DNA of 64,000 bases from Stigmatella erecta (GTDB lineage Bacteria > Myxococcota > Myxococcia > Myxococcales > Myxococcaceae), in the NCBI RefSeq assembly GCF_900111745.1, contig NZ_FOIJ01000002.1, positions 372,001 through 436,000 on the forward strand. Reading direction: 5' to 3'. How positions within the stretch are numbered: position 1 is the first letter of the stretch; the number at the start of each line of letters is the position of its first letter. Positions 8,271 to 26,342 of this stretch are shown one piece after another. The notes under the pieces were generated by a model. The model did not search any database. It was not told the DNA's origin and worked only from the letters and a program-made list of their open reading frames with translations. The translations under genes were made by a program, and so were the position numbers.

Positions 8271-9494
8271 TCAGGGCATCTCGGTCTGTCCCTGCCGCCG
8301 CAGGAAGGTAGGGATGTCGAACTGATCCTCGTCCAGCGGGAGCGCCGCGTCCTTCACCACCGCGGTGCGCGAGCTGGTGATGGACTTGTTCTCGACCGAG
8401 GAGAGCGAGCGCCCGCCGGACTTGGCGGGCACCAGGGTGGCCACTTCCTCGCGCGCCACGCTGAGCACCGAGGAGGACGGGCGGTTGACGAGCGGCACCG
8501 GCGTGGTCTGCGCGGCCACCACGCGCTGCTGCTTCATCTCGCGGTGCACGAAGCCCGTGGCGATGATGGTGATTTTCACCTCGTCCTGGATCTGCTCGTC
8601 GATGAGCGAGCCGAAGATGATCTCCGCCTCGTTGTCGGCGGCGTCATGCACCAGGGTGAGCGCCTCGTTGACCTCCTGAAGCGTCATGTCGCGGCCGCCG
8701 GTGATGTTGATGAGCAGGCCGGTGGCGCCGTCGATGGAGACGTCCTCCAGCAGCGGGCTGGAGATGGCCTGCTGCATGGCGATGAGCGCGCGCTTGTCGC
8801 CGGACGAGGACCCGGTGCCCATGAGCGCCAGGCCCTTGTCGCTCATGATGGTCTTCACGTCGGCGAAGTCCACGTTGATGTAGCCGTGGTACTGGATGAG
8901 GTCCGAGATGCCCTGCACGGCGTTGAGGAGCACCTCGTCGGCGCGCTTGAAGGTCTCCAGCAGCGGCATGGGCTCGGTGCTCAGGGTGAGCAGCCGCTGG
9001 TTGGGGATGGTGATGAGGGTGTCGACGGCGGCCTTGAGCTCCACGAGGCCCTGCTCGGCCTGCTTGCGGCGCTTGTTGCCCTCGAAGAGGAAGGGCTTGG
9101 TGACGACGCCCACCGTGAGGCAGCCGAGGCTCTTGGCGATGTCCGCGATGATGGGCGCGGCGCCCGTGCCGGTGCCACCGCCCATGCCCGCTGTGACGAA
9201 CACCATGTCCGCGCCCTCGAGCACGGCGGCGATCTGGTCCCGGGACTCCAGGGCGGCCTCGCGGCCCATCTCGGGGTTGGCGCCTGCGCCCAGGCCCTTG
9301 GTGAGCGTCTGGCCGATCTGAAGCCGCGTGGGCGACTTGTTGGCGGCCAGGGCCTGCACATCGGTGTTCGCGGCGATGAAGTCGACCCGTTCCAGCTTGG
9401 CCAAGATCATCGTGTTGACGGCGTTGCAGCCAGCTCCACCCACGCCAACAACACGAATCTTCGCGGCCTGCTTGTTCTGCTCGAACTGGTCCAT
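8271..9494 (-). CDS. ftsZ: Cell division GTPase FtsZ
   Basis: 407 residues. FtsZ is the tubulin-like GTPase that forms the Z-ring at midcell. The nucleotide-binding signature [10 protein letters not shown], the N-terminal [13 protein letters not shown] and the T7-loop region are all present. The linker is short and ends in DIPTFLRRQ, the conserved C-terminal peptide that binds FtsA and other partners. ATG at 9494 is preferred because AAAGGA lies 6 nt upstream; a GTG 24 nt further upstream also exists. Unusually, ftsZ is separated from ftsA by 15.5 kb holding one giant gene. A perfect dyad lies about 90 nt upstream of the start. Confidence 0.97.
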
Positions 9495-9584
9495 GGTGAT
9501 CCTTTCAACGGGAGCCACGCGTCGCCCGTCGCGGGGGTCTCCAGGTCATCCATCATCAGCAAGTCGCGGTCTTTGGCAAGTATT

Positions 9585-9614
9585 CCGCAACGTGGATGTA
9601 GCGCCACGTTGCGG
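9585..9614. promoter_or_regulatory. Perfect 11-bp inverted repeat in the ftsZ leader
   Basis: CCGCAACGTGG - 8 nt - CCACGTTGCGG forms a perfect 11-bp stem 91-120 nt upstream of the ftsZ start. No T-run follows on either strand, so it is not an ordinary terminator. It may be a protein-binding operator or an RNA hairpin in the ftsZ leader. The 252-nt region between the giant gene and ftsZ should hold the ftsZ promoter, but no clear -35/-10 pair is visible to me. Confidence 0.45.
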
Positions 9615-9746
9615 TCTCAAGTCCTGACAGGCACTTACGCGGAGCCCAGGCCCCCGGTCCGCCGGCACCGGTGGGCCCCGCTCACATCTTGACTCGCGAT
9701 TCGAGCCGCGCTTGGCCCCGCGATGACGCTGGCCAGGCGAGCATGC

Positions 9747-12700
9747 TCAAGGCGCGGAGCGTTCCACCTCCATCGGCTTGACCTTCACGACGGAGAACTC
9801 CACGCGGCGGTTGCTCTCGCGGCCCTTGTTGGTCTTGTTGCTGGCCAATGGACGCGCCTCGCCGAAGCCCACCGACTCCAGCCGCTCCGCCGCGACCCCC
9901 TCCTGCACGAGGCGGTCGAGCACGGCCTTCGCGCGGCGCTCGGACAGGCGCAGGTTCTCCTCGTCGGCGCCCTGATCATCCGTGTAGCCCTCCACGCGAA
10001 TCTTCTCGATTTCTGAGTGGGCGTTCATCACCTGGGCCACCTGCCTCAGCAGGCTGAAGGACTTCGGCAGGATGACGTCCATGCTGGAGGTGAAGAAGAT
10101 CTTCTCGAGGATGACGATCTTCTCGCGCTCCACGAGCACCTTCACCTTGCCCTTGTCCGGGCAGCCATCCTCGTCCTTCACGCCGTTGATGGTCTCCTTC
10201 TCGTTGGGGCACTGGTCGGCCGCGTCCGCGACGCCATCCTGATCGTTGTCCGGGTCCGGGCAGCCGTCCTCATCCTGGAAGCCGTCCTTGTCCTCGGGCG
10301 CCCCCGGGCAGCGGTCCACATCGTCCGTCAGGCCGTCGCCATCGGTGTCCACCGGCGGCGGCGGGGGCGCCTCGTCCGGGCAGCCGTCCTCGTCCTGGAA
10401 GCCGTTGAGCGTCTCCTTCTCGTTGGGGCACTTGTCGCTCGCGTCCAGCAGGCCGTCCCCGTCGTTGTCCGGGTCCGCGCAGCCGTCCTCGTCCTGGAAG
10501 CCATCGACGTCCTCCGGGCCCTGCGGGCACACCGGCGCGGCGGGCGCCACCGCCGGCGCCGTCACGACGGGCGGCGGCTCCCCGGGGGCCGGGGCCTTCT
10601 TTTCCGACAGGGACCAGTAGGAGACCCCCGCGAAGACGCGGAACTCCGGGGTGCCGTACCCCTTGGTGAAGCCCGGCCCTCCGCCCACGTGGGCGTCGAA
10701 CGCATTCAAGAACCGGTACTTCACCGTGGCCAGGAGCTCGAGCGGCCGCTCCTCGGCGCCCTTCTGTCCCAGCCCGAGGGCGCCCGCCAGCGACCCGCCC
10801 GCGGTCAGCTTGCCGAAGGGCACCTCCGCGCCCACGCCATAGGTGAACTCATTGGAGACGGTGAGGTTGCGCAGCTGCTCCTTGGGCCGCAAGGCGAGGC
10901 CCAGGTTGGCCAGCACCCGCAGCCCACTGCCGTGGCGCCACTCGCCGAGCGCCCGGGGGTGCACCGAGAAGGGGCCCCCCCGGAAGTCCGCGCTGCCCGT
11001 GGGCAGGTGAACCGGCAGCGCGGCGCCCAGCTCCAGGGACTCCGTGGACAGCAGGCGTGCCTTCGGCACCAGCCGCAGGTTCCCCAGGCCCGTCGAGTCC
11101 GCGGCCGGAACGGCAGGCCCCGTGTCCGGCTGCAGCGAGGAGGTCTGCGAGGTGATGGGCAGGGCCAGGCCCAGCTCGAACCGGTCGAACAGGGCGATGG
11201 CTCCCATCAGGTCCACGGTGAGCTGCGACGCCACCAGCTTGTGAATCACCTCGCCCGAGGCCCCTTTGGAGAGGGTCAGCGGGTCCTTCGCGTACCCCAG
11301 CGAAAGCCCCACGTTCCAGTCCAGGTGGTGCCCCACCCTCGCGCTGTGGAGGCCGAGCAGATCGTGCAGGCCTGGGGCGGGCTTGTACTGCTGCGCATCG
11401 ATCTTGTCGGACGCCGGGATGGAGACGGTCTGGGCCTGAGCGGACAGGCTGCCCAAGCCGCTCAGGACCGCCACCACGCCCCAGACACCGGCGCGGGAGG
11501 GCGCCCGGAGGCCCTGCCGGCGGCGCCGCAGCCACGGCGCCCCGAGCAGCAGCGCCAGCGGCATCAGGCTCGTGGTGCCCGCCGCGCCGCAACCGCTGCC
11601 CCCGACGACGAAGTCATCGGTGGGGTCCAACGGATCTCCGCCGCCAGCCACCTCTTCACCGTCGTTCACCCCACCCTCGTCGGTGTCCGCCTTGTTCGGA
11701 TCCGTCTCGCCCGGATCGATGGCGCCCGAGTGGTTCTTGTCCTCCTCGCCGTCGCTCAAGCCGTCGCCATCCGTGTCCGCCTTGCGCGGATCGGTCTTCG
11801 ACAACGGATCGGCATCCGGCCGGAAGTTCGGCGAGCTCGGGTCGGTCCCGGACGGCGCCGTGTCCGCCGTCACGCCCCGCTCCGTGCCATCGAGGATTCC
11901 GTCGTCGTCGCTGTCCTCGTCGAGGGCATCGATGCGGCCGTCGCCATCGGTGTCGGTCAGACCATCCGAGCCGTCGGGAACGCCGTCGTCATCCGAGTCG
12001 TTGTCGAACGGATCGGTGCCCACCTGCACCTCGCGCTCGTAGTCCACGCCGTCCCGGTCACCATCCCGGTCGTCGGACGGATCCTGCGGGTTGAGGTCGC
12101 CCACATCGACGCGGCCGTTCTGGTTGCGGTCCTCGATGCCGTCGAACACGCCACCACTGTCGGTGTCCTTCTGGAGCGGATCCGTCTTCGTGGCGGGGTC
12201 CGCATCCGGCTTGAACTTCGCCGGATCCGTATCCGTGCCTTCCGGCTTCGTCAGGCCCAGCTCCAGACCGTCGCTGAGGCCGTCCTCGTCCGTATCGAAC
12301 TTGAGCGGGTGGGTCTCTTCGGCATCCACCACACCGTTGTGATTGGCGTCCTCGGAGCCGTCCAGCAGACCGTCGTCGTCCGAGTCGTCGTCCATCGGAT
12401 CGGTCTCCAGCCGGGCCTCCACGTCGTCGGGGAGCCCGTCACCGTCGGAGTCCCCGACGGACGTCACCGTCACCGTGGCCGTGTCTGTACCGTCGTTGCC
12501 ATCGGAGATGGTGTACGTGAACGTCACGGTGCCGTTGAAGCCCTCCGGCGGCGTGAAGGTCACCTGGCGGCCGGTGATCGCCACCGAGCCCGCGCTGGGC
12601 TGCGTCACCGAGATGATCGAGAGGATCTCCCCGATATCCGGCTCCGCGGTGTCATTGGCCAGGACATCGAGCGGCGTGGGGCCGCTGTCCGAGGCCACGG

Positions 12701-15700
12701 TGAAGCTGTCGTCGTTGGCGGTGGGCGCATCGTTCACCGGCGTCACTGTCACGGTGACGGTGGCCGTGTCCGTGCCTCCGTTGCCGTCGGACAGCGTGTA
12801 CGTGAACGCCGTAGTGCCATTGAAGTTGGCCTCGGGCGTGAAGCTCACGACGCCGTCCATCAACGTCACCGTGCCATGGTCTGGCTGCGTCACCGACGCC
12901 ACCGTCAGCGTCTCGCCCACGTCCGGTGCCGCCGTGTCGTTGGCCTTGACCTCCAGCACCACGGCCCCGCTGTCCTCCGCCACCTCGAAGGTGTCGTCCT
13001 CCGCGACGGGCGGCCGGTTGATCGGGCGCACGCGCACCACCACGTTGGCCGTGTCCGTCAGGCCGCGGCCATCCGACACGGTGTAGGTGAAGCCCGTGGT
13101 GCCCGTGAAGCCCGCGGCAGGCGTGAAGGTCACCAGGGTGGCCGTGAAGGTCACCGCTCCGTTCATGGGCTGAGTCACCGCCGTGATGGAGAGCGTCTCG
13201 CCCACATCCGGGGCCGTCGTGTCGTTGGCGAGCACGTCCAGCGCCTTGGCCGTGCCATCCGCCACCACGGTGAAGTCGTCATCCACCGCGGTGGGCGGCC
13301 GGTTGAGCGGCGTGACCGTCACCGTCACCCGCGCCTGGTCCCTGCCGCCGTTGCCGTCGGAGACCGTGTAGAGGAACGTCGCCGTCCCGTAGAAGTTGGC
13401 CGCGGGCGTGAAGGTCACCCCCGTGGCGGTGAACGTCACCGAGCCCCGGACAGGCTGCGTTACCCCAATAATGGTGAGCGTCTCGCCGGTGTCCGGCGCC
13501 GTCGAGTCATTGGCCAGCACGTCAAACGGCGTGGGGCCGCTGTTCTCGGTCACCGTGAAGCTGTCGTCGTTGGCCACCGGCGGGTTGTTCGAACCGGAGA
13601 CCACCACCGTCACCGTGGCCGTGTCCGTGCCCCCGTTGCCGTCGGAGATCTCGTAGTCGAAGGACGTGGTGCCGGCGAAGTTGGCCGCCGGCGTGAAGCG
13701 CACCACGCCCCCCGTCAGCTCCACCGTGCCGTTGGCGGGCTGGGTCACCGACGTCACCGTCAGCGTCTCGCCCTCGTCGGGCGCGGAGGTGTCGTTGAGC
13801 AGCACGTCCAGCGCCGTGGTGCTGCTGTTCTCCGCCACCCGGAAGCTGTCATTGACGGCCGTGGGCGGATCGTTCACCGGCGTCACCGTCACCGTGACCG
13901 TGGCCGAGTCCGTGCCGCCGTTGCCATCGGAGATGGTGTACGAGAACACCGTGACGCCGTGGAAGTTGGCCTCGGGCGTGAAGCGCACCACGCCGCCCGA
14001 CTGAGACGTGGAGCCGTGCGCGGGCTGCGTCACCCCCGTCACCGTCAACGTCTCGCCCGTGTCCGGAGCGGACGTGTCGTTGGCCAGCACGTCCAGCACC
14101 GCGGTCCCGCTGTCCTCGGCCACCGTGAAACGGTCGTTGACGGCATCCGGCGGATCATTGACCGGCGTCACCGTCACCGTGACGTTGGCCGTGTCCGTGC
14201 CGCCGTTGCCGTCGGAGACGGTGTACGTGAACGTCGCGATGCCGTTGAAGCCAACTGAGGGCGTGAAGCGCACCAGGCCGCCCGTCAGCGACACCACGCC
14301 GTTGACCGGCTGGGTCACGGCCACCACGGACAGCGTCTCGCCCGTGTCCGGCGCGAACGTGTCGTTGGCCAGCACGTTCAGCTGCGTGCTCGTGGTGCCT
14401 TCGGCCACCGTGAAGCTGTCGTCATTGGCCGTGGGCGGATCATTCACCGGCGTCACCGTCACGGTGACCAGCGCGGAGTCCACCCCGCCATTGCCGTCCG
14501 AGGCCGTGTACGTGAACGCCGTGGTGCCGTTGAAGTTGGGCTCCGGCGTGAAGCTCACCCCGGTGCCCGTCACCGTCACCGTGCCGTGGGCCGGCTGGGT
14601 CACCGACGCGACCGTCAGCGTCTCGCCCGTGTCCGGAGCCGTCGTGTCGTTGCCCAGCACGTCGAACTCCGTGGCCGCGCTGTCCTCGGCCACCGTGAAC
14701 GCATCGTCGTTGGCGGCCGGCGGGTGGTTGGCGCCCTCCACCGTCACCGTCACCGTGGCCGTGTCCGTCGCACCGTTGCCATCCGACACGGTGTAGGTGA
14801 ACGTCGTGGTCCCGGTGAAGTTGGCCGCGGGCGTGAAGCTCACCCCGCTTCCGGTCAACGCCACCGTGCCGGAGGCGGGCGGCGTGATCGACGCCACCGT
14901 CAGGGTCTCCCCCACATCCGGGGCGATCGTGTCGTTGAGCAGCACGTCCAGCAGCGTGGGCCCGCTGTTGGCGGCCACCGTGAAGGCATCGTCGTTGGCC
15001 GTGGGCGGGTCGTTCACCGGCGTCACCGTCACCGTCACCGTGGCCGTCGCGGTCCCGCCGTTGCCGTCGGAGATCGTGTACGTGAACGCCATGGTGCCGA
15101 AGAAGTTCGGCGCGGGCGTGAAGCTCACATTCGAGGCCGTGAAGGTCACCGTGCCGTTCGCGGGCTGGGTCACGGACGTCACCGTCAGCGTCTCCCCCGT
15201 GTCGGGCGCGCTCCTGTCGTTGGTGAGCACGTCCAGCACCGTGGCGGTGCTGTCCTCGGCCACCGTGAAGCTGTCGCTGACGGCATCCGGCGGATCGTTC
15301 ACCGGCGTCACCGTCACCGTGACGGTCGCCGTGGCGGTGCCGCCATTGCCGTCGGACACCGTGTACGTGAACGTCGTGGTGCCGTTGAAGTTCGCCGAGG
15401 GCCGGAAGCGCAAGGCCCCGCTGACCAGCAGCACTTGGCCATGGGCCGGCTGGGTCGCCGTCGTGACGGTCAGCGTCTCCCCCGTATCGGGCGCCACCGT
15501 GTCGTTGGTCAGCACGTCCAGCACCGTGAAGCCGCTGTCCTCCAGGACGGAGAACGCGTCGTCCGTGGCCGTGGGCGGATCGTTCACCGGCGCCACCGAC
15601 ACCGTCACGAGGGCCGTGTCCGTGCCCCCGTTGCCGTCGGACACCGTGTACGTGAACGCCGTGATGCCGTTGAAGTTGGCCGCGGGCGTGAAGCTCACGC

Positions 15701-18700
15701 TGGAGGCCGTGAAGGTCACCGCCGCGTTCGCCGGCTGCGTCACCGAGAGGATGGAGAGCGTCTCGCCCGTGTCGGGCGCGGACGTGTCGTTCACCAGCAC
15801 ATCCAGCACCGTGGCGGCGCTGTCCTCGGCCACCGTGAAGCTGTCGTCGTTGGCCACCGGCGGCCGGTTGGTCCCGCCCACGGTGACCGTCACCGTGGCC
15901 GTGGCCGTGCCCCCGTTGCCGTCAGACACCGTGTACGTGAACGTCGTGGTGCCCGTGAAGTTGGCCGCGGGCGTGAAGCTCACGTTGGAGGCCGTGAACG
16001 TCACCGTGCCGTTCGCCGGTTGCGTCACCGCCGTCACCCGCAGGGTCTCCCCCACATCGGGCGTGATGGTGTCGTTGATCAACACGTTCAGCGCGGTGGG
16101 GCCGCTGTTGGCCGCCACCGTGAAGCTGTCGTCGTTGGCCGTGGGCGGATCATTGACGGGCGTCACCGTCACCACCACGACGGCCGTGTCCGTGCCGCCC
16201 CGGCCATCCGAGGCCGTGTAGGTGAAGGAGACCGTCCCGAAGAAGTCGGCCGGAGGCGTGTAGCTGACCTTGTCCCCGGTGATGGCCACCGTGCCGTTCG
16301 CGGGCTGCGTCACGGCCACCACCGACAGCGTCTCGCCGAGGTCCGGCGCCGTCGAGTCGTTGGCCAGCACGTCCAGCTCCGTGGCGGCGCTGTCCTCGGC
16401 CACCGTGAAGGTGTCGTCGCCCGCGGTGGGCGGACGGTTCACGGGCGTGACCGTGACCGTGACCGTGGCCGTGTCGGTGCCGCCGTTGCCGTCGGACACC
16501 GTGTACGTGAACGTCGTGGTCCCGCGGAACCCGATGGCCGGCGTGAACGTCACGTCCGTGGCCGTGAAGGACACGGTGCCGTTGGCCGGCTGGGTCACCT
16601 CGGTAATGGTGAGCGTCTCGCCCACGTCGGGCGCGAACGTGTCGTTGACCAGCACGTTCAGCACCGTGGTGCCCAGGTCCTCGGACATGGTGAAGGTGTC
16701 GTTGATGGCATCCGGCGGGTCATTCACCGGCGTCACCGTCACCGTCACCGTGGCCTCGTCCGAGGCCCCCCCACCGTCCGTCACCGTATAGGTGAACGTC
16801 GTGGTGCCGTAGTAGTTGGGCGCGGGCGTGAAGCTCACGTGGGCCGCGGTGAAGGTTACCGTGCCGTTCGCGGGCTGCGTCACCGCCGACACCCGCAGCG
16901 TGTCGCCCGTCTCGGGGCCCGTCGAGTCGTTGGCCAGGACATCCACCACCGTGGCCCCACTGTCCTCCGCCACCGTGATGGTGTCGTCGTTGGCCGTGGG
17001 CGGATCATTGACCGGCGTCACCGTCACCGTGACGGAGGCCGTGTCCGTGCCGCCGTTGCCGTCGGACACCGTGTACGTGAAGGACGTTGCGCCGAAGTAA
17101 TTGTCCGGGGGAGTGTAGCTCACCGTGTCGCCGGTGCTGACCACCGTGCCGCGGGTCGGCTGCGTCACCGCGATGATGGAGAGCGTCTCGCCCGTGTCTG
17201 GCGCCGTGGTGTCGTTGGCCAGCACGTCCAGCTCGGTGGCGCCGCTGTCCTCTGCCACCGTGAAGCTGTCATTTACAGCGTCGGGCCGGTGGTTGGTGCC
17301 GCCCACGACGATGGTCACCGTCGCCGTGGCGGTGCCGCCATTGCCGTCGGACACCGTGTACGTGAACGCCGTCGTCCCGTTGAAGTTCGTCGCGGGGGTG
17401 AACCGCACCACCCCGCCGGTCAGCGTCACCGAGCCATTGGCCGGCTGCGTGACCGCGGTGATGGTCAGCGTCTCGCCAATGTCCGGCGCCGTGGTGTCGT
17501 TGGCCAGCACATCCAGCGCCGTGGCCCCGCTGTTTTCCTCCACCGAGAAGGAGTCATCGCTGGCCACCGGCAGGTCGTTCACCGGCGTCACCGTCACCGT
17601 CACCGTGGCCGTCGCGGTCCCACCGTTGCCGTCGGAGATGGAGTACGTGAACGTGACGGTGCCGTAGTAGTTGGCCGGCGGCGTGTAGCTCACGTTGCCC
17701 GAGGTGAAGGTCACCACGCCATTGGCCGGCTGGGTGACGGCCGTGATGGTCAGGGTCTCCCCCGGCTCCGGAGCCGACGAGTCGTTGGCCAGCACGTTCA
17801 GCACGGTGGTGCCGCTGTCCTCGGCCACCGAGTAGGCATCGTTGTTCGCCGTAGGCGGATCATTCACCGGCGAGACGTTCATCGTCACCGTGGCCGTGGC
17901 CGTCCCCCCGTTACCATCGGAGAGCGTGTAGGTGAACGAGGTGGTGCCGTAGTAGTGGGGCGCGGGCGTGAAGGTGATGTTCGAGGCGGTGAAGGTCACC
18001 GTGCCCCCGCCCGGCTGCGTCACCGCGATGATGGAGAGCGTCTCGCCCGTGTCCGGCGCGGACGAGTCGTTGGCCAGCACGTCCAGCGCCGTGGGCCCGC
18101 TGTCCTCGGCCACCGTGAAGCTGTCGTTGACCGCGCGGGGTGGATCATTCACCGGCGTCACCGTCACCGTGACGGTGGCCGTGTCCGTGCCCCCGTTGCC
18201 GTCGGACACCGTGTACGTGAACGTCGTGGTCCCGTTGTAGTTGGCCTCGGGCCGGAAGCGGACCACGCCGCCCGACAGCGTCACCGAGCCATGCGTGGGC
18301 AGGGTCACGGCGATCACCGAGAGCGTCTCGCCCGTGTCCGGCGCCGTCGTGTCGTTGGCCAGCACGTCCAGCGCCGTGAAGGCGCTGTCCTCGGCCACCG
18401 TGAAGGCATCGTCGTTGGCCGTGGGCGGATCGTTGACCGGCGTCACCGTCACCGTGACGTTGGCCGTGTCCGTGCCCCCGTTGCCGTCAGACACCGTGTA
18501 CGTGAACGCCGTGGTCCCGTTGAAGTTGGCGGCCGGCGTGAAGCTCACATTGGAGGCCGTGAACGTCACCGTGCCGTTCGCCGGCTGCGTCACCGCCGTG
18601 ATGGTGAGCGTCTCGCCCGGGTCGGGCGCGGTGGTGTCGTTGGCCAGGACATCCAGCACCGTGGCCGCACTGTTCTCCGCCACCGTGAAGTTGTCGTTCC

Positions 18701-21700
18701 TGGCGTCGGGCGGGTGGTTCACCGGCGTCACCGTCACCGTCACGGTGGCGGTCGCCGTGCCCCCGTTGCCGTCGGACACCGTGTACGTGAACGTCGTCGT
18801 CCCACGGAAGTTGGTGGCGGGCGTGAAGCGCAGCACGCCGCTCGCCAGCGTCACCGTACCGTTCGCGGGCTGGGTGACGGACGCAATGGAGAGCGTCTCC
18901 CCCACGTCCGGGGCCAGCGTGTCGTTGGCCAGCACGTTCAGCGCCGTGGCCCCGCTGTTCTCCGCGACCACGAAGGCATCGTCCAGCGCCACCGGCGGGT
19001 CGTTCACCGGCGTCACCGTCACCGTGACGGTCGCCGTGTCCGTGGCCCCGTTGCCGTCGGACACCGTGTACGTGAACGTCGTGGTGCCGTTGAAGTTGGC
19101 CACCGGCGTGAAGCTCACGTTCCCCGTACCGAGCGTCACCGTGCCGTTCGCCGGCTGCGTCACCTCGGTGAGGGTGAGCGTCTCCCCCGTGTCCGGCAGC
19201 GTCGTGTCGTTGGCCAGGACATCCAGCACCGTGGCGGTGCTGTCCTCGGCCACCGTGAAGCTGTCGTTGACGGCATCCGGCGGGTCGTTCACCGGCGTCA
19301 CCGTCACCGTGACGGTCGCCGTCGCCGTGCCCCCGTTGCCGTCGGACACCGTGTACGTGAACGTCGTGGTCCCGCTGAAGTTGGCGGCCGGCGTGAAGCG
19401 CAGCACGCCGCCCGTCAGCGTCACCGTGCCATTCGTGGGCTGGGTGACGGCCGCGATGGAGAGCGTCTCGCCCGTGTCCGGGGCCAGCGTGTCGTTGGCC
19501 AGCACGTCCAGCGCCGTGGCCCCGCTGTCCTCCACCACCGTGAAGGCATCATCCAGCGCCACCGGCGGGTCGTTCACCGGCGTCACCGTCACCGTGACGG
19601 TCGCCGTGGCGGTGCCCCCGTTGCCGTCCGAGACGGTGTACGTGAACGTCGTGGTCCCGCTGTAGTTGGCGGCCGGCGTGAAGCTCACGTTCGCGGCAGT
19701 GAAGGTCACCGTCCCGTTCGCCGGCTGCGTCACTGCCGTGATGGACAGGATCTCTCCGAGGTCCGGCGCGGTGGTGTCGTTGGCCAGCACGTTGAGCACC
19801 GTGGCCGCGCTGTCCTCGGGCACCGAGAAGCTGTCGTTGGCGGCCACCGGCGGGTTGTTCTGCGCCACCACCCGGACCGTCACCGTGGCCGTGTCCGTGC
19901 CCCCGTTGCCATCGGAGATCGTGTACGTGAACGTCGTGGTGCCCCGGAAGCCCGTGGCCGGCGTGAAGCTCACGCCCGTGGAGGTGAAGGCCACCGTGCC
20001 GTTGGCCGGTTGAGTCACCGCCGTGATGCTCAGCGTCTCGCCCGTGTCCGGCGCGAACGTGTCGTTGGCCAGCACGTCCAGCACCGTGGTTCCCGACGTA
20101 TCCATCACCGTGAAGCTGTCGTTGACGGCATCCGGCGGGTCGTTCACCGGCGTCACCGTCACCGTGACGGTCGCCGTGGCGGTGCCCCCGTTGCCGTCGG
20201 ACACCGTGTACGTGAACGTCGTGGTCCCGTTGTAGTGGGCGGCGGGCGTGAAGCGCACCACGCTCGTGGTCGACGTCACCGTGCCATTCGCCGGCTGAGT
20301 CACCGCCGTGATGGTGAGCGTCTCGCCCGTGTCCGGCAGCGTGGTGTCGTTGGCCAGCACGTCCAGCACCGTGGCGCCGCTGTCCTCGGCCACCGAGAAG
20401 CTGTCATCCTGGGCCACCGGCGGGTCATTCACGTTCGTCACCGTCACCGTGACGATGGCCGTGGCGGTGCCGCCGTTGCCGTCGGACACCGTGTACGTGA
20501 ACGTCGTGGTCCCGCTGAAGCCCGGCGTGGGGGTGAAGCTCACCTGGGTGGCCGTGAACGTCACCGTGCCGTGAGCCGGCTGCGTCACCGCGGAGACGCT
20601 GAGCGTCTCGCCCGTGTCGGGCCCCGTGGTGTCGTTGGCCAGCACGTTGAACGCCGTGGCGGAGCTGTTCTCGGCCACCGTGTAGCTGTCGTTGGTGGCC
20701 ACCGGCGGGTCGTTCACCGGCGTCACCGTCACCGTCACCGTGGCGGTGTCCGTGCCGCCGTTGCCATCGGAGATCGTGTACGTGAACGTCGTGGTCCCGT
20801 TGTAGTTGGCCGGAGGCGTGTAGCGCACCACCCCGCCCGTCAGCGTCACCGAGCCCTGCGACGGCTGGGTGACGGACCTGACGGACAGCGTCTCGCCCGT
20901 GTCCGGCGCGAAGGTGTCATTGGCCAGCACGTCCAGCGCCGTGGCCCCACTGTCCTCCGCCACCGAGACAGCATCGTCCACCGCGTCGGGCGGATCATTG
21001 ACCGGCGTCACCGTCACCGTGACGGTGGCGGTGGCCGTGCCCCCATTGCCGTCGGACACCGTGTACGTGAACGTCGTGGTGCCATGGAAGTTGGCCGCGG
21101 GCTTGAAGCTCACGTTGGAGGTGGTGAAGGTCACCGTGCCGTTCGCCGGCTGAGTCACCGCCGTGATGGAGAGCGTCTCGCCCGTGTCCGGCGCCGTGGT
21201 GTCGTTGGCCAGCACATTGAACGGGGTGGCGGCACTGTCCTCGGCCACCGTGAAGGCATCGTCGTTGGCCGTGGGCGGGTCGTTCACCGGCGTCACCGTC
21301 ACCGTCACCGTGGCGGTGGCCGTGCCCCCATTGCCGTCGGAGATCGTGTACGTGAACGTCGTGGTCCCGTTGTAGTTGGCCACGGGCGTGAAGGTGACGC
21401 CGGTGGCGGTAAAGGTCACCGTGCCGTTGGCCGGCTGGGTGACGGCCGTCACCGTCAGCGTCTCACCCGTGTCGGGCGCGAATGAGTCGTTGGCCAGCAC
21501 ATCCAGCGCCGTGGCCCCGCTGCTCTCGGCCACCGTGAAGGTGTCGTTCTTCGCGGTGGGCGGGTCGTTCACCGGCGTCACCGTCACCGTGACGGTGGCC
21601 GTGTCCGTGCCGCCGCGGCCATCGGCCAGCGTATAGGTGAACGTCGTGGTGCCGTGGAAGTTGGCCGCAGGCCGGAAGCGCACCGTCGCGCCACTCAGGG

Positions 21701-24700
21701 TCACCGTGCCATTCGCCGGCTGCGTCACCGCCGAGACGAACAGCGTCTCGCCCACGTCGGGCTCCGCCGTGTCATTGGCCAGCACGTCCAGCACCGTGGC
21801 CGCGCTGTCCTCCGCCACCGTGAAAGCATCGTCATTGGCCGTCGGCGGATCATTCACGTCCGACACGGTCACGTTGACGGTCGCCGTGCTGGTGCCGCCG
21901 TTGCCATCCGAGATGGTGTAGGTGAACGTCGTAGTGCCCCGGAAGCCCGTGGCCGGCTTGAAGGTGACGCCCGTGGCGGTGAAGGTCACCGTGCCGTTGG
22001 CCGGCTGGGTGACGGCCGTCACCGTCAGCGTCTCGCCCGTGTCGGGCGCGAACGAGTCGTTGGCCAGCACATCCAGCACCGCGCCCGGGCTGTTCTCGTC
22101 CACCGTGAAGGCGTCGTTCACCGCGGTGGGCGGGTCGTTCACCGGCGTCACCGTCACCGTGACGGTGGCCGTGTCCGTGCCACCCCGGCCATCGGACACC
22201 GTATAGGTGAACGTCGTGGTGCCGTGGAAGTTGGCCGCAGGCCGGAAGCGGGCCCTCGTCGAGGAGAAGTTCACCGAGCCATTCGTCGGCTGCGTCACCG
22301 CCGTGATGGTGAGCGTCTCGCCCACGTCGGGCTCCGCGGTGTCGTTGGCCAGCACGTCCAGGTCCGTGAAGGCGCTGTCCTCGGCCATCGTGAAGGCATC
22401 GTCGTTGGCCGTCGGCGGATCATTCACGTCCGACACCGTCACGACGACCGTCGCCGTGTCGGTGCCGCCGTTGCCATCCGAGATGGTGTAGGTGAACGTC
22501 GTGGTGCCCCGGAAGCCCGTGGCCGGCTTGAAGGTGACGCCCGTGGCGGTGAAGGTCACCGTGCCGTTGGCCGGCTGGGTGACGGCCGTCACCGTCAGCG
22601 TCTCGCCCGTGTCCGGCGCCGTCGAGTCGTTGGCCAGCACGTCCAGCACCGTGCCGGTGCTCTGCTGATCCACGGTGAAGGCATCGTTCACCGCGTCCGG
22701 CGGATCATTCACGTTCGTGACGGTGACGGTGACGGTGGCCACATCCGTGCCGCCGTTGCCATCCGAGGCCGTGTACGTGAACGTGGTGACGCCCGCGAAG
22801 TTGGGGGCGGGCGTGAAGCGCACGTTGCCGGTGGTGAAGGTCACCGTGCCGTTCGCGGGCTGCGTCGCCGCCACGATGGAGAGCGTCTCACCCGTCTCCG
22901 GTCCCACCAGGTCGTTGGCCAGCACGTTGAACGTCGTCAGCGGGCTGTCCTCGAGCACCGTGTACGCATCGTCCACGGCGTCCGGCGGATCATTCACCGG
23001 GGTGATGGTCAGGTTCACCGTCGCGGTGGCCGTGCTGCCGTTGCCATCCGAGACGGTGTAGGTGAACGACGTGACGCCCGCGTAGTTGAGCGGCGGCGAG
23101 TAGCGCACCACGCCACCGGTCAGCGTCACCACGCCCCGCAGGGGCTGGGTCACGGCCGTCACCGTCATCGTCTCGTTCAGGTCCGGCGCCGTCGAGTCGT
23201 TGGCCAGCACGTCCAGCACCCCGTTGACGCTGTCCTCCTCCACGGAGAACGCGTCGTTGGTGGCGCGAACCGGGTCATTCACCGGCGTGACCGTCACCGT
23301 CACCGTGGCGGTGGCCGTGCCGCCGCGCCCGTCCGAGGCCGTGTACGTGAACGCCGTGATGCCCTCGAAGTCCGCCGTGGGCTTGAAGCTGACGTTCGTG
23401 GGGGTGAAGGTCACCGTGCCATTCGGGGGCTGCGTCACGGCCACCACGGACAGCGTCTCGCCCGTGTCCGGCGCCGTCGAGTCGTTGGCCAGCACGTTGA
23501 ACGCCGTGGCGGCGCTGTCCTCGGCCACCGAGTAGGCATCGTTGGTCGCCGTGGGCGGCTCGTTGGGCTGCCCCACCGCCACGGTGACGGTGGCCGTGTC
23601 CGTGCCGCCCCGCCCGTCCGCGATGGTGTACGTGAACGTCGTGGTGCCCTGGAAGCCCGCTGGGGCCGTATAGGAGACGCCCGTGGCGGTGAACGTCACC
23701 GAGCCACTCGCGGGCTGCGTCACCGCCGTCACCGTCAGCGTCTCGGGGCTGTCGGGCAGGTACGTGTCGTTGGCCAGCACGTTGATGGGGTAGTTCGTGC
23801 TGTCGCCGGGAACCCCGACGGAGTCATCCACCGCGTCCGGCGGATCGTTGATGTCCTTGACGGTGATGGGGATGACGTCGTTGTCGCTCAGCGCGTTGCC
23901 CAGACCGCTGTTCTTCAGGTCCAGGGTCGTGATGACGAGGGAGGTGGAGCCGTAGAAGTTCGCCCGGGGCTTGTACTTCAGCCCGTTCAGCGCGGCGTTG
24001 ATGTCCACCAGCTTGCCCTCGAAGGACATGGCGGCATCCGCGGTGCCATCACCGCCCAGGAAGGTCAGCCCCGAGGTGCCGCTGAGCGTGGCCGCGCCCT
24101 GGTTGGCGGCGAGCGTCACGCGCAGGTTGCGGTTGAACACGTCCACGTCCGAGGTGGAGATCGTCTTGTTCGTGCCCGAGAAGACGAGTTCCGTGTCCTC
24201 GTCCATCGTCTGCGCCACGGGCACCGGCAGCTTGTTAACCGGGGCGTCGTTCTGGCCGACGACCGTCTCCTGGGACGAGGTGTTGTCCCCCGGCACCGGG
24301 TCCGTGGTCGCCGAGCTGATGGTGACGTTCGAGAGCAGCAGGACATCGTCCTGGAACGGCGCCATCATCGTGAACTTGATGCTCTGCGAGACGTTGACGG
24401 CGAGCGTCGAGGCCGTGCACGTCCACACGTGCACGTTGCCCAGCGTGCCGCAGTTCCACCCCGTGGGTGGGGTGAAGTTCTGGAAGAAGGCCTGCGTGGG
24501 AAGGTTCACCGCCACCGACACGGTCTCCGCCGGGTTGGGCCCCAGGTTCTGGACGTCGATGGAGTAGGTGAAGATGGCCCCCTCGACGATCGGGTCGGCC
24601 GAGTCCTGCAGCGTGACGCGCAGGTTGGCGTTGCCGGCCAGCATCGGCTGGACGTGCACATCCGGGGCGATCCGCCAGAAGTCCGGCACGGTGTCCACGC

Positions 24701-24857
24701 GGGGCACCTGCAGGGACTGCGCGCTCAACGCGCCGCGCGCGGAGGCTTCATCGGATGCGTCGGGACCACAGGCCGTCCCCAGGGCGCTCACCAGGAGCAC
24801 GGCCAGCAGGGGATGGAGGGACAGGGGACGGGAGAAAGGCTCGGAAGAACCCATCAT
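9747..24857 (-). CDS. Giant surface protein: 40 Ig-like repeats, TSP3, internal MYXO-CTERM-like tail, fused to OmpA-type protein
   Basis: 5036 codons in one uninterrupted frame. Order: signal peptide with lipoprotein-like end GTAC (about residue 31); DUF11-like domain (about 75-205); a unique segment (about 210-335); 40 repeats of about 95 residues (about 336-4132) of the Big_9/cadherin-like type with DVLANDT, GETLT, VTQPANGTV, FTYTVSDGNGGT and NDPP; a Asp-rich TSP3 calcium-binding ladder (to about 4415); a MYXO-CTERM-like tail (GGSGCGAAG, hydrophobic stretch, RRRR, about 4419-4449); a second signal-like segment ending SAQA; a beta-barrel-like outer-membrane region; a second TSP3 ladder (about 4776-4900); and a C-terminal OmpA domain that should bind peptidoglycan. 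It is probably a giant adhesin or surface filament. It reads as two ancestral genes joined. It has its own leader after the ftsA terminator. Confidence 0.93.
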   Translation of the reverse strand: MMGSSEPFSRPLSLHPLLAVLLVSALGTACGPDASDEASARGALSAQSLQVPRVDTVPDFWRIAPDVHVQPMLAGNANLRVTLQDSADPIVEGAIFTYSIDVQNLGPNPAETVSVAVNLPTQAFFQNFTPPTGWNCGTLGNVHVWTCTASTLAVNVSQSIKFTMMAPFQDDVLLLSNVTISSATTDPVPGDNTSSQETVVGQNDAPVNKLPVPVAQTMDEDTELVFSGTNKTISTSDVDVFNRNLRVTLAANQGAATLSGTSGLTFLGGDGTADAAMSFEGKLVDINAALNGLKYKPRANFYGSTSLVITTLDLKNSGLGNALSDNDVIPITVKDINDPPDAVDDSVGVPGDSTNYPINVLANDTYLPDSPETLTVTAVTQPASGSVTFTATGVSYTAPAGFQGTTTFTYTIADGRGGTDTATVTVAVGQPNEPPTATNDAYSVAEDSAATAFNVLANDSTAPDTGETLSVVAVTQPPNGTVTFTPTNVSFKPTADFEGITAFTYTASDGRGGTATATVTVTVTPVNDPVRATNDAFSVEEDSVNGVLDVLANDSTAPDLNETMTVTAVTQPLRGVVTLTGGVVRYSPPLNYAGVTSFTYTVSDGNGSTATATVNLTITPVNDPPDAVDDAYTVLEDSPLTTFNVLANDLVGPETGETLSIVAATQPANGTVTFTTGNVRFTPAPNFAGVTTFTYTASDGNGGTDVATVTVTVTNVNDPPDAVNDAFTVDQQSTGTVLDVLANDSTAPDTGETLTVTAVTQPANGTVTFTATGVTFKPATGFRGTTTFTYTISDGNGGTDTATVVVTVSDVNDPPTANDDAFTMAEDSAFTDLDVLANDTAEPDVGETLTITAVTQPTNGSVNFSSTRARFRPAANFHGTTTFTYTVSDGRGGTDTATVTVTVTPVNDPPTAVNDAFTVDENSPGAVLDVLANDSFAPDTGETLTVTAVTQPANGTVTFTATGVTFKPATGFRGTTTFTYTISDGNGGTSTATVNVTVSDVNDPPTANDDAFTVAEDSAATVLDVLANDTAEPDVGETLFVSAVTQPANGTVTLSGATVRFRPAANFHGTTTFTYTLADGRGGTDTATVTVTVTPVNDPPTAKNDTFTVAESSGATALDVLANDSFAPDTGETLTVTAVTQPANGTVTFTATGVTFTPVANYNGTTTFTYTISDGNGGTATATVTVTVTPVNDPPTANDDAFTVAEDSAATPFNVLANDTTAPDTGETLSITAVTQPANGTVTFTTSNVSFKPAANFHGTTTFTYTVSDGNGGTATATVTVTVTPVNDPPDAVDDAVSVAEDSGATALDVLANDTFAPDTGETLSVRSVTQPSQGSVTLTGGVVRYTPPANYNGTTTFTYTISDGNGGTDTATVTVTVTPVNDPPVATNDSYTVAENSSATAFNVLANDTTGPDTGETLSVSAVTQPAHGTVTFTATQVSFTPTPGFSGTTTFTYTVSDGNGGTATAIVTVTVTNVNDPPVAQDDSFSVAEDSGATVLDVLANDTTLPDTGETLTITAVTQPANGTVTSTTSVVRFTPAAHYNGTTTFTYTVSDGNGGTATATVTVTVTPVNDPPDAVNDSFTVMDTSGTTVLDVLANDTFAPDTGETLSITAVTQPANGTVAFTSTGVSFTPATGFRGTTTFTYTISDGNGGTDTATVTVRVVAQNNPPVAANDSFSVPEDSAATVLNVLANDTTAPDLGEILSITAVTQPANGTVTFTAANVSFTPAANYSGTTTFTYTVSDGNGGTATATVTVTVTPVNDPPVALDDAFTVVEDSGATALDVLANDTLAPDTGETLSIAAVTQPTNGTVTLTGGVLRFTPAANFSGTTTFTYTVSDGNGGTATATVTVTVTPVNDPPDAVNDSFTVAEDSTATVLDVLANDTTLPDTGETLTLTEVTQPANGTVTLGTGNVSFTPVANFNGTTTFTYTVSDGNGATDTATVTVTVTPVNDPPVALDDAFVVAENSGATALNVLANDTLAPDVGETLSIASVTQPANGTVTLASGVLRFTPATNFRGTTTFTYTVSDGNGGTATATVTVTVTPVNHPPDARNDNFTVAENSAATVLDVLANDTTAPDPGETLTITAVTQPANGTVTFTASNVSFTPAANFNGTTAFTYTVSDGNGGTDTANVTVTVTPVNDPPTANDDAFTVAEDSAFTALDVLANDTTAPDTGETLSVIAVTLPTHGSVTLSGGVVRFRPEANYNGTTTFTYTVSDGNGGTDTATVTVTVTPVNDPPRAVNDSFTVAEDSGPTALDVLANDSSAPDTGETLSIIAVTQPGGGTVTFTASNITFTPAPHYYGTTSFTYTLSDGNGGTATATVTMNVSPVNDPPTANNDAYSVAEDSGTTVLNVLANDSSAPEPGETLTITAVTQPANGVVTFTSGNVSYTPPANYYGTVTFTYSISDGNGGTATATVTVTVTPVNDLPVASDDSFSVEENSGATALDVLANDTTAPDIGETLTITAVTQPANGSVTLTGGVVRFTPATNFNGTTAFTYTVSDGNGGTATATVTIVVGGTNHRPDAVNDSFTVAEDSGATELDVLANDTTAPDTGETLSIIAVTQPTRGTVVSTGDTVSYTPPDNYFGATSFTYTVSDGNGGTDTASVTVTVTPVNDPPTANDDTITVAEDSGATVVDVLANDSTGPETGDTLRVSAVTQPANGTVTFTAAHVSFTPAPNYYGTTTFTYTVTDGGGASDEATVTVTVTPVNDPPDAINDTFTMSEDLGTTVLNVLVNDTFAPDVGETLTITEVTQPANGTVSFTATDVTFTPAIGFRGTTTFTYTVSDGNGGTDTATVTVTVTPVNRPPTAGDDTFTVAEDSAATELDVLANDSTAPDLGETLSVVAVTQPANGTVAITGDKVSYTPPADFFGTVSFTYTASDGRGGTDTAVVVVTVTPVNDPPTANDDSFTVAANSGPTALNVLINDTITPDVGETLRVTAVTQPANGTVTFTASNVSFTPAANFTGTTTFTYTVSDGNGGTATATVTVTVGGTNRPPVANDDSFTVAEDSAATVLDVLVNDTSAPDTGETLSILSVTQPANAAVTFTASSVSFTPAANFNGITAFTYTVSDGNGGTDTALVTVSVAPVNDPPTATDDAFSVLEDSGFTVLDVLTNDTVAPDTGETLTVTTATQPAHGQVLLVSGALRFRPSANFNGTTTFTYTVSDGNGGTATATVTVTVTPVNDPPDAVSDSFTVAEDSTATVLDVLTNDRSAPDTGETLTVTSVTQPANGTVTFTASNVSFTPAPNFFGTMAFTYTISDGNGGTATATVTVTVTPVNDPPTANDDAFTVAANSGPTLLDVLLNDTIAPDVGETLTVASITPPASGTVALTGSGVSFTPAANFTGTTTFTYTVSDGNGATDTATVTVTVEGANHPPAANDDAFTVAEDSAATEFDVLGNDTTAPDTGETLTVASVTQPAHGTVTVTGTGVSFTPEPNFNGTTAFTYTASDGNGGVDSALVTVTVTPVNDPPTANDDSFTVAEGTTSTQLNVLANDTFAPDTGETLSVVAVTQPVNGVVSLTGGLVRFTPSVGFNGIATFTYTVSDGNGGTDTANVTVTVTPVNDPPDAVNDRFTVAEDSGTAVLDVLANDTSAPDTGETLTVTGVTQPAHGSTSQSGGVVRFTPEANFHGVTVFSYTISDGNGGTDSATVTVTVTPVNDPPTAVNDSFRVAENSSTTALDVLLNDTSAPDEGETLTVTSVTQPANGTVELTGGVVRFTPAANFAGTTSFDYEISDGNGGTDTATVTVVVSGSNNPPVANDDSFTVTENSGPTPFDVLANDSTAPDTGETLTIIGVTQPVRGSVTFTATGVTFTPAANFYGTATFLYTVSDGNGGRDQARVTVTVTPLNRPPTAVDDDFTVVADGTAKALDVLANDTTAPDVGETLSITAVTQPMNGAVTFTATLVTFTPAAGFTGTTGFTYTVSDGRGLTDTANVVVRVRPINRPPVAEDDTFEVAEDSGAVVLEVKANDTAAPDVGETLTVASVTQPDHGTVTLMDGVVSFTPEANFNGTTAFTYTLSDGNGGTDTATVTVTVTPVNDAPTANDDSFTVASDSGPTPLDVLANDTAEPDIGEILSIISVTQPSAGSVAITGRQVTFTPPEGFNGTVTFTYTISDGNDGTDTATVTVTSVGDSDGDGLPDDVEARLETDPMDDDSDDDGLLDGSEDANHNGVVDAEETHPLKFDTDEDGLSDGLELGLTKPEGTDTDPAKFKPDADPATKTDPLQKDTDSGGVFDGIEDRNQNGRVDVGDLNPQDPSDDRDGDRDGVDYEREVQVGTDPFDNDSDDDGVPDGSDGLTDTDGDGRIDALDEDSDDDGILDGTERGVTADTAPSGTDPSSPNFRPDADPLSKTDPRKADTDGDGLSDGEEDKNHSGAIDPGETDPNKADTDEGGVNDGEEVAGGGDPLDPTDDFVVGGSGCGAAGTTSLMPLALLLGAPWLRRRRQGLRAPSRAGVWGVVAVLSGLGSLSAQAQTVSIPASDKIDAQQYKPAPGLHDLLGLHSARVGHHLDWNVGLSLGYAKDPLTLSKGASGEVIHKLVASQLTVDLMGAIALFDRFELGLALPITSQTSSLQPDTGPAVPAADSTGLGNLRLVPKARLLSTESLELGAALPVHLPTGSADFRGGPFSVHPRALGEWRHGSGLRVLANLGLALRPKEQLRNLTVSNEFTYGVGAEVPFGKLTAGGSLAGALGLGQKGAEERPLELLATVKYRFLNAFDAHVGGGPGFTKGYGTPEFRVFAGVSYWSLSEKKAPAPGEPPPVVTAPAVAPAAPVCPQGPEDVDGFQDEDGCADPDNDGDGLLDASDKCPNEKETLNGFQDEDGCPDEAPPPPPVDTDGDGLTDDVDRCPGAPEDKDGFQDEDGCPDPDNDQDGVADAADQCPNEKETINGVKDEDGCPDKGKVKVLVEREKIVILEKIFFTSSMDVILPKSFSLLRQVAQVMNAHSEIEKIRVEGYTDDQGADEENLRLSERRAKAVLDRLVQEGVAAERLESVGFGEARPLASNKTNKGRESNRRVEFSVVKVKPMEVERSAP
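11433..11603 (-). other. Internal sorting-tail-like segment followed by a second signal-peptide-like segment
   Basis: Within the giant reading frame, GGSGCGAAG is followed by a hydrophobic run (MPLALLLGAPWL) and then RRRRQ. This is the order of a MYXO-CTERM tail (Gly-Cys motif, membrane helix, Arg cluster), which normally ends a protein. Immediately after it, GVWGVVAVLSGLG then SLSAQA reads like an export signal with an Ala-x-Ala cleavage site, followed by the barrel-like OmpA part. There is no stop codon in between, and no ATG or convincing ribosome-binding site for a separate downstream gene. The motif assignment is by eye from known family descriptions. Confidence 0.7.
12462..23849 (-). 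repeat. 40 tandem 285-bp coding repeats (Ig-like, Big_9/cadherin-like type)
   Basis: Counting the DVLANDT-type core gives 40 units; the span of about 11.39 kb divided by 285 bp agrees. Consecutive units are joined by linkers such as TPVNDPP, while some units carry variants (GGTNRPP, EGANHPP, SGSNNPP, DVNDPP). The repeat is visible in the DNA as well as in the protein, with long near-identical blocks. Some similarity is of higher order: units 5-6 resemble units 7-8 as a pair. Such arrays are prone to expansion, contraction and mis-assembly, so the unit number should be treated as provisional. Confidence 0.92.
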
Positions 24858-24879
24858 GGGAGATGTTCCAGGATCGGCG

Positions 24880-24902
24880 AGGGGCTGTGGCGAGCAGCCC
24901 CT
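24880..24902. promoter_or_regulatory. 8-bp inverted repeat in the leader of the giant gene
   Basis: AGGGGCTG - 7 nt - CAGCCCCT forms a perfect 8-bp stem 23-45 nt upstream of the ATGATG start of the giant gene. The 209-nt region between ftsA and the giant gene should contain its promoter. Ribosome-binding complementarity directly before the start is weak (GGA about 12 nt upstream), so a structured leader could matter. Function is unknown. Confidence 0.3.
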
Positions 24903-25001
24903 TCCTGCGATCGGTCGAAGATGAGTAACGACGTCAGCGGTGGGAGGGAATTGTCCTACCCGCGGCGTTACCCCCTGGATTCTACCCGAGGACTGTCAGA
25001 T

Positions 25002-25035
25002 AAAAAAAAGAGGGACCCCCAGAGGGATCCCTCTT
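25002..25035 (-). terminator. Intrinsic terminator after ftsA
   Basis: On the minus strand AAGAGGGA pairs with TCCCTCTT around a 12-nt loop and is followed directly by a run of T residues (eight consecutive A on plus, 25002-25009). It begins 32 nt beyond the ftsA stop codon, which marks the end of the mraZ-ftsA transcription unit. Confidence 0.85.
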
Positions 25036-25066
25036 CTTGCTTTCCGGGCTTCAGCAAGCAGCCGAG

Positions 25067-26299
25067 CTAGAAAATTTCCTCCAGCCACTCCCGCATGCGG
25101 CCCTTCACCTTCTTGTAGACGTTCTCCTCGCGGATCCGGAACATGCGCCGGTCCAGGTGCTTGGCCCCGTAGACGACAAGGCCCACGCCCGTGGCGTACA
25201 TGGGGCTCTTCACCACGTCCACCAGCCCGCCGATACCCCGGGGCATACCGCGCCGCACCGGCAGTCCGAGGACCTCCTCGGCCAGCTCGGGCATTCCCGC
25301 CAGCAGCGTGGAGCCGCCGGTAATCACGATGCCCGAGGCGAGCAGGTCCTCGTAGCCGCACTTCTGGATCTCGCGGTGCACGAGCTGGAAAATCTCCTCC
25401 ACGCGCGGCTCGAGAATCTCACAGAGGATCTGCCGGCCGAGCACGCGCGGCTGGCGCCCGCCCACGCTGGGCACCTCGATGGTCTCGTCCTTGTTCACCA
25501 TGGAGGCAAGCGCACAGCCGAACTTCTGCTTGATGCGCTCGGCCTCGTGCGCCGGGGTGCGCAGGCCGATGGCGATGTCGCTGGTGAGGTTGTTGCCGCC
25601 CAGGGCGATGACGGCGGTGTGGACGATGGAGCCGCCGGAGAAGATGGCGATGTCCGTGGTGCCCCCGCCGATGTCCACCAGGCACACCCCGAGCTCCTTC
25701 TCGTCATCGCCGAGCACCGCCTCGGCGGAGGCGAGCGGCTGCAGGACGATGTCGGAGACGTTGAGGCCTGTGCGGTTGGCGCACTTGACGATGTTCTGCG
25801 CGCTGGAGACGGCGCCCGTGACGATGTGGACCTTGGCCTCCAGGCGGACGCCGGCCATGCCCAGGGGCTCCTTGATGCCGCCCTGGTCGTCGATGATGAA
25901 CTCCTGGGGCAGGACGTGAATCACCTCGCGGTCCAGGGGGATGGCCACCGCCTTGGCCGCGTCGATGACGCGCGCCAGATCCGCCTCGCGGACCTCCTTG
26001 TCCTTCACCGCGACGATGCCCTGGGAGTTGAAGCCCTTGATGTGGCCCCCGGCGATGCCCGTGTAGACGTGGGAGATCTCCGCCCCGGCCATCAGCTCCG
26101 CCTCTTCCACGGCGCGGCGGATGGAGGCCACGGTCGCCTCGATGTTGACGACCACGCCCTTGCGCAATCCCTTCGACGGGTGCGTACCGATCCCGATGAT
26201 GTCGATGCCGCTGTCCGTCAGCTCACCGACGATCGCGCAGATCTTCGTCGTGCCGATGTCCAGGCCGACGATGATCTCCCCAGACTTCTGCTTCGCCAT
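25067..26299 (-). CDS. ftsA: Cell division protein FtsA
   Basis: 410 residues. FtsA is the actin-like ATPase that tethers FtsZ to the inner membrane and recruits later division proteins. The N-terminal phosphate-1 motif GLDIGTTKICAIVG, the adenosine-motif glycine cluster (VITGGSTLLAGM), and the C-terminal amphipathic membrane-targeting helix (VKGRMREWLEEIF) are visible. ATG at 26299 has GGGAGG 8-9 nt upstream; a GTG two codons earlier is less likely. It is the last gene before an intrinsic terminator, 43 nt behind ftsQ. The usual ftsA-ftsZ adjacency is broken by the giant gene. Confidence 0.96.
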   Translation of the reverse strand: MAKQKSGEIIVGLDIGTTKICAIVGELTDSGIDIIGIGTHPSKGLRKGVVVNIEATVASIRRAVEEAELMAGAEISHVYTGIAGGHIKGFNSQGIVAVKDKEVREADLARVIDAAKAVAIPLDREVIHVLPQEFIIDDQGGIKEPLGMAGVRLEAKVHIVTGAVSSAQNIVKCANRTGLNVSDIVLQPLASAEAVLGDDEKELGVCLVDIGGGTTDIAIFSGGSIVHTAVIALGGNNLTSDIAIGLRTPAHEAERIKQKFGCALASMVNKDETIEVPSVGGRQPRVLGRQILCEILEPRVEEIFQLVHREIQKCGYEDLLASGIVITGGSTLLAGMPELAEEVLGLPVRRGMPRGIGGLVDVVKSPMYATGVGLVVYGAKHLDRRMFRIREENVYKKVKGRMREWLEEIF

Positions 26300-26342
26300 G
26301 ACCACTGCCTCCCGTTGCCCTCACTCTCGTGAAGGGCAAGCC

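Follow-up and report, generated by a model that had tools for sequence, protein, structure and literature searches.

Organization of the Locus

The window, that is, the whole stretch of 64,000 nucleotides from Stigmatella erecta analysed here, carries a giant gene in which an adhesin, an internal MYXO-CTERM tail, a signal-like segment and an OmpA-type protein follow one another in one frame, with no stop codon across its 5036 codons. The order of the neighbours is ftsQ, ftsA, the adhesin–OmpA gene and ftsZ. The 15-kb adhesin gene therefore sits between ftsA and ftsZ, within the dcw cluster (8271-26305), and the same ftsA–adhesin–ftsZ layout was also found in congeners and in other genera of the family. 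The features of the region are the following:

8271..9518, minus strand: ftsZ, downstream neighbour (PF00091/PF12327)
9747..24857, minus strand: single open frame, adhesin + internal tail + signal-like segment + OmpA-type protein (5036 aa)
9807..10094, minus strand: OmpA peptidoglycan-binding domain (PF00691, 72 bits, E 5e-20)
10152..10541 (boundaries approximate), minus strand: second TSP3-type calcium-repeat linker (DGDGL..D repeats; aligns with the periplasmic part of C. gingivalis OmpA 5wtl)
10611..11384, minus strand: 12-strand outer-membrane beta-barrel, FapF/COG4313-like (AlphaFold model; Foldseek and VIA, Z 22.7 to FapF 5o65)
11433..11486, minus strand: h- and c-region of the predicted internal signal peptide, ending SAQA^Q (xxA^Q in 62/62 fused homologues; helix 54-70 in the model)
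11487..11516 (boundaries approximate), minus strand: basic linker, the stretch of the junction under least constraint, predicted to be a cytoplasmic loop (pN/pS; R/K excess)
11517..11594, minus strand: internal MYXO-CTERM tail, closing with RRRR and with the invariant Cys encoded at 11589-11591 (TIGR03382; Cys in 62/62 fused homologues)
11655..12470 (boundaries approximate), minus strand: TSP3-like Asp-rich stretch before the tail (from the sequence; PF18884 weak, below cut-off)
12462..23782, minus strand: about 40 cadherin-like/Big_9 repeats with a 285-nt period (TRF; PF17963, 40 stretches)
24270..24623, minus strand: DUF11 domain of the adhesin (PF01345, 46.6 bits)
24771..24857, with Cys at 24768-24770, minus strand: lipobox-like export signal at the adhesin N-terminus, LVSALGTAC (from the sequence; Cys kept in congeners L040, L041 and L042)
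25067..26305, minus strand: ftsA, upstream neighbour (PF14450)

A lipobox-like Cys was recognized by eye on most of the readable adhesin N-termini, so that the adhesin, once released, might carry lipid at either end. A Pfam scan of the 4219-aa adhesin part gave no match to PA14 at E <= 0.01, in agreement with the original prediction, which had seen no such domain.

The barrel of the OmpA half was modelled with confidence, its best match being the 12-strand FapF and the COG4313 channel, followed by autotransporter translocators (Z 19.3 to NalP); the model of this half also contains an OmpA domain. The barrel of this TraB-like module (10611-11384) was thus modelled as FapF-type, with 12 strands, and not as the 8-strand barrel of OmpA, which may bear on how TraB works. 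The best NCBIfam hit of this half was the TraB model NF033763, at 281 and so below its cut-off of 700. The original prediction had pointed to a likeness to TraA–TraB in architecture and had claimed no homology; the architectural likeness stands, and the OmpA half turns out in addition to be a distant TraB homologue, with 32% identity to the TraB-like gene of the same genome (L081). Some fused variants stop right after the barrel and have neither TSP3 nor OmpA domain (L063:5171-6226, L064:5007-6068 and L070:2091-3167).

Sequence Signals at the Junction

The junction reads ...VVGGSGCGAAGTTSLMPLALLLGAPWLRRRRQGLRAPSRAGVWGVVAVLSGLGSLSAQA^QTVSIP..., where ^ marks the predicted signal peptidase I (SPase I) site, and the coordinates first proposed for the tail and the export signal, 11433–11603, are correct. 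The tail has the hallmarks of MYXO-CTERM, with an invariant Cys, a hydrophobic helix and an Arg cluster (GGSGC–helix–RRRR), and a check against profile HMMs, suggested along with the original prediction, supports the assignment through TIGR03382 (25.0 bits, over the curated cut-off of 15.85), while TIGR03901 stayed under its own (17.9 bits, cut-off 20). This tail is not C-terminal, as 589 residues are still to come after it. The second segment fits the Sec/SPase I pattern, with a basic n-region, a hydrophobic core and A at -3 and -1; a signal of this type is internal in the window gene and N-terminal in 17 free-standing homologues of the OmpA module. AlphaFold placed one helix before the basic loop (30–43) and one after it (54–70), both with low confidence (pLDDT about 50).

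To place the tail among those of its own genome, 28 hits were read in frame (27 fetched plus the second fused locus), with the window tail as the 29th; L106 was left out of the count as it is not a GC-type tail. Among the resulting 28 GC-type tails, the frame closes 1–13 residues further on in 26, and only two are internal, those of the window gene and its paralogue C10 (L066), both followed by the same OmpA module. The genome also encodes the myxosortase MrtX (NF040593, 443 bits, cut-off 180), the secretin GspD of the type II secretion system (T2SS; 649 bits) and SPase I (135 bits).

Conservation of Both Signals in Fused Homologues

A set of 62 distinct fused junctions was gathered from the loci of relatives and from 56 named loci, the latter located through a motif downstream of the junction; membership in the fused class was set by the length of the upstream frame, independently of the presence of a tail. 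The tail Cys was retained in all 62, and so was the xxA^Q site, with A at -1 in 62 and at -3 in 57, the spacing from tail to site ranging between 38 and 58 residues. This constancy of the Cys speaks against an ordinary membrane helix devoid of tail-like conservation, the case that the original prediction had named as contrary to it. Its central claim, that an adhesin and an OmpA protein are joined in one frame, is borne out as well: when orthologues and paralogues were compared for one or two genes at the junction, the fused homologues kept a single frame with both signals.

In an alignment of 38 sequences only 10 of 634 positions were invariant, and four of these were G18 and C21 in the tail and A73 and Q74 at the signal-peptidase site (hypergeometric P about 2e-6), so their clustering in the two signals is not due to chance. 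By contrast, pN/pS pooled over eight orthologous groups came to 0.89 in the linker, compared with 0.37 in the tail, 0.43 in the barrel and 0.55 in the signal core. Gaps were also most frequent in the linker, which is indel-rich and nearly neutral. Between the tail helix and the h-region, 287 Arg/Lys were counted vs 5 Asp/Glu over the 62 junctions, an excess that matches the positive-inside rule for a cytoplasmic loop. While both sites are constant, the N-terminal domains and the length and sequence of the linker vary among the fused loci.

Directly after the predicted SPase I site (11430-11435 in the window), Gln is the residue at 62/62 fused junctions, as it is in the 17 free-standing modules; it could give a pyroglutamate at the new N-terminus.

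In a survey of the phylum, at least about 110 fused loci in at least 75 of 195 genomes were found among the matches listed, counted by hand as matches beginning at the tail in long frames, and none of the fused matches listed had an internal stop. Fused forms are not confined to the family, further examples coming from additional families of its order and from elsewhere in the class and phylum (L208, L209, L213, L214, L224, L228, L229 and L233).

Split and Adhesin-Less Versions

Twenty free-standing homologues of the OmpA module were found, 17 of which form one supported clade; two fused Corallococcus loci (L143/L154) nest within it, this starred nesting being the only result used from the tree, a quick search without bootstraps in which some deep branches are long. 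All 17 modules keep the signal-peptide site before Gln, and the tail motif was present in none of them (0/17). In two the cut site is ambiguous, SPVQA^Q or SPV^Q in L130 and ARA^Q or AQA^Q in L138, which does not affect the conclusion. The count of labels on the tree (3 changes) cannot separate gain from loss of the adhesin. As several modules retain traces of an adhesin or a tail at their beginning (L142, L144, L148, L149; L131, L133, L136), we prefer the reading that they arose by adhesin loss from a fused ancestor.

At other loci the two halves are separate genes. In M. vastator (L132) and in genome G134 the upstream adhesin gene closes with a tail followed by stops, and the OmpA gene starts from a separate ATG with a signal of its own. 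Further two-gene versions are a MAG locus (L162) and the traA/traB pair of the same genome as the window (L081), with a 4-base ATGA overlap; in all four cases a tail closes the separate adhesin, while the OmpA gene carries its own signal. Comparing fused and split relatives, the second segment occupies the place that an ordinary N-terminal signal has in a lone module, and the tail occurs where an adhesin precedes. At L132:5052-5400 and at L237, in two Myxococcus genomes, the adhesin gene with its terminal tail is followed by two in-frame stops and a free OmpA gene; M. xanthus L137 has the same OmpA gene, with the upstream adhesin absent.

A Model for Processing of the Fused Product

What the DNA holds directly is one frame, both motifs with their conservation, a basic loop, a near-neutral linker and the genes for MrtX, SPase I and the T2SS. 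We consider it likely that the product is an envelope polyprotein, with an inner-membrane hairpin that is cut by myxosortase and by signal peptidase I to give an anchored adhesin and its OmpA partner; both cuts, the lipidation, the surface location and the partnership are what we infer. The adhesin would enter the Sec pathway through the N-terminal signal, the MYXO-CTERM helix would stop transfer (N-out/C-in), the basic linker would remain in the cytoplasm and the second hydrophobic segment would restart export (N-in/C-out). MrtX would then cut at the tail, probably after lipidation of the tail Cys, leaving a lipid-anchored adhesin that would reach the surface through type II secretion, while signal peptidase I would cut after SAQA, so that the barrel/OmpA protein could go to the outer membrane and peptidoglycan. 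The hairpin, about 50 residues long, would be discarded, and one translation would yield a TraA-like/TraB-like pair at 1:1.

This model is supported by several lines of evidence. Both sites are kept at all 62 junctions while their surroundings vary, and the loop between them is basic and evolves more freely than tail, signal or barrel. Free-standing modules keep the site before Gln and lack the tail, and split adhesins end in one. The fused frame recurs in distant parts of the phylum, and the three enzymes or machines required are encoded in the genome. Finally, MrtX has been shown to cleave the MYXO-CTERM of TraA and processing of the M. xanthus fusion MXAN_5598 has been proposed in the available account (PMC11980579), the product of the latter having been detected by mass spectrometry in vesicles and membranes of M. 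xanthus (PMC4158809). Against the model, the substrates described as experimentally tested, TraA and MXAN_4924, have their tails at the C-terminus, and both helices were modelled with low confidence.

The alternative that survives best, although we consider it unlikely, is that the chain stays uncut at the tail, or is cut only at SAQA, in such a way that the hairpin is a permanent inner-membrane anchor and the tail a relic or a membrane helix. The DNA does encode a single-frame product, and the conservation of the sites could come from an uncleaved hairpin that requires these residues. However, the signature Cys is universal among fused forms, is positioned as in terminal tails and is missing from modules without an adhesin, and an uncut chain would tether an inner-membrane hairpin to an outer-membrane barrel.

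A start codon inside the junction, giving a free OmpA protein besides the fused form, seems very improbable. In-frame ATG, GTG or TTG codons exist in most junctions, but their positions are not conserved and 3/62 have none at all; a Shine-Dalgarno-like stretch was detected in only 3/62, synonymous divergence in the junction is not reduced, and the window offers just two candidates, an ATG that falls within the tail helix and a GTG that precedes the cut by 15 codons. We give equally little credit to export of the autotransporter kind, in which the barrel would help to carry the adhesin of its own chain across the outer membrane. The fold matches the secretion pore FapF (Z 22.7) and NalP, and the adhesin is N-terminal and the barrel C-terminal; against this, TSP3 and OmpA domains come after the barrel, two hydrophobic segments and a basic loop of cytoplasmic type lie between passenger and barrel, likeness of fold is not likeness of function, and MYXO-CTERM proteins use the T2SS according to the available account (PMC11980579). 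The uncut hairpin and the autotransporter-like role are possible readings that fit less well than a cut hairpin. A sequencing or assembly error or a recent frameshift, which a single indel could produce in a pair overlapping by 4 bases such as traA/traB (ATGA; PMC3325183), can be dismissed, being refuted by the orthologues, with the at least about 110 fused loci in at least 75 genomes among the matches listed, several of these genomes being single-contig assemblies and none of the loci having an internal stop.

More tentatively than for the polyprotein itself, the excision of a hairpin by myxosortase and signal peptidase I may be a strategy used across the phylum, delivering each adhesin at 1:1 with a dedicated barrel that would anchor or even export it.

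Comparison with Known Systems

In an M. xanthus genome the fused frame has ftsZ beside its end and shares 56% identity over residues 2–633 (OmpA half), and for these reasons the window gene is, by sequence, the orthologue of MXAN_5598. As described in the available account (Guo, Haft & Wall 2025, PMC11980579), MXAN_5598 has adhesin and barrel/OmpA halves around an internal MYXO-CTERM and lies next to ftsA/ftsZ; its likeness to TraA plus TraB was noted there, and its N-terminal part was proposed to be processed and anchored. The two genes thus share, as far as that account goes, a giant adhesin, internal MYXO-CTERM, barrel and OmpA domain, and a place between ftsA and ftsZ. A fusion of this type is therefore already in print for one M. 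xanthus gene, of which the window gene is a further member, and the novelty is lower than the original prediction could know. The parts of the account dealing with MXAN_5598 call internal cases 'rare' and do not mention a second export signal, a fused family, or free-standing and two-gene relatives.

What is new here is that the join is conserved across loci, and so is not an assembly error or an isolated oddity. A curiosity published for one gene can now be seen as a conserved design that recurs and that occurs naturally in fused, split and adhesin-less versions, which makes the proposed processing directly testable in M. xanthus. Besides TraA–TraB there are now further candidate pairs of adhesin and barrel, one of which lies within the cell-division gene cluster. 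The recurrence of the design across the phylum suggests a genuine bacterial envelope polyprotein.

To our knowledge, bacteria rarely make polyproteins that are cut into separate functional proteins, and nothing relevant on bacterial polyproteins with signal peptides inside the chain turned up in the literature covered. In fbcH of Bradyrhizobium, a cytochrome b/c1 polyprotein, one gene gives two envelope proteins split by signal peptidase; these are respiratory subunits of the inner membrane, and no sorting tag is involved. Type Va autotransporters have their translocator barrel at the extreme C-terminus, whereas the window barrel, which matches them in fold, is followed by TSP3 and OmpA domains. 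Internal sortase and archaeosortase signals (LPXTG; ArtA substrates), cited as refs 45-46 in PMC11980579, resemble the window tail as C-terminal sorting tags that work inside a chain, but other enzymes act on them and, as cited, they do not lie between two partners that both carry an export signal. A further parallel is TraA–TraB, the pair for outer-membrane exchange, a MYXO-CTERM surface protein together with a barrel/OmpA protein homologous to the OmpA half studied here; in that system, however, traA and traB are two genes overlapping by 4 bases, and TraA has PA14 and Cys-rich repeats (PMC3325183), whereas in the window both partners are encoded in one frame.
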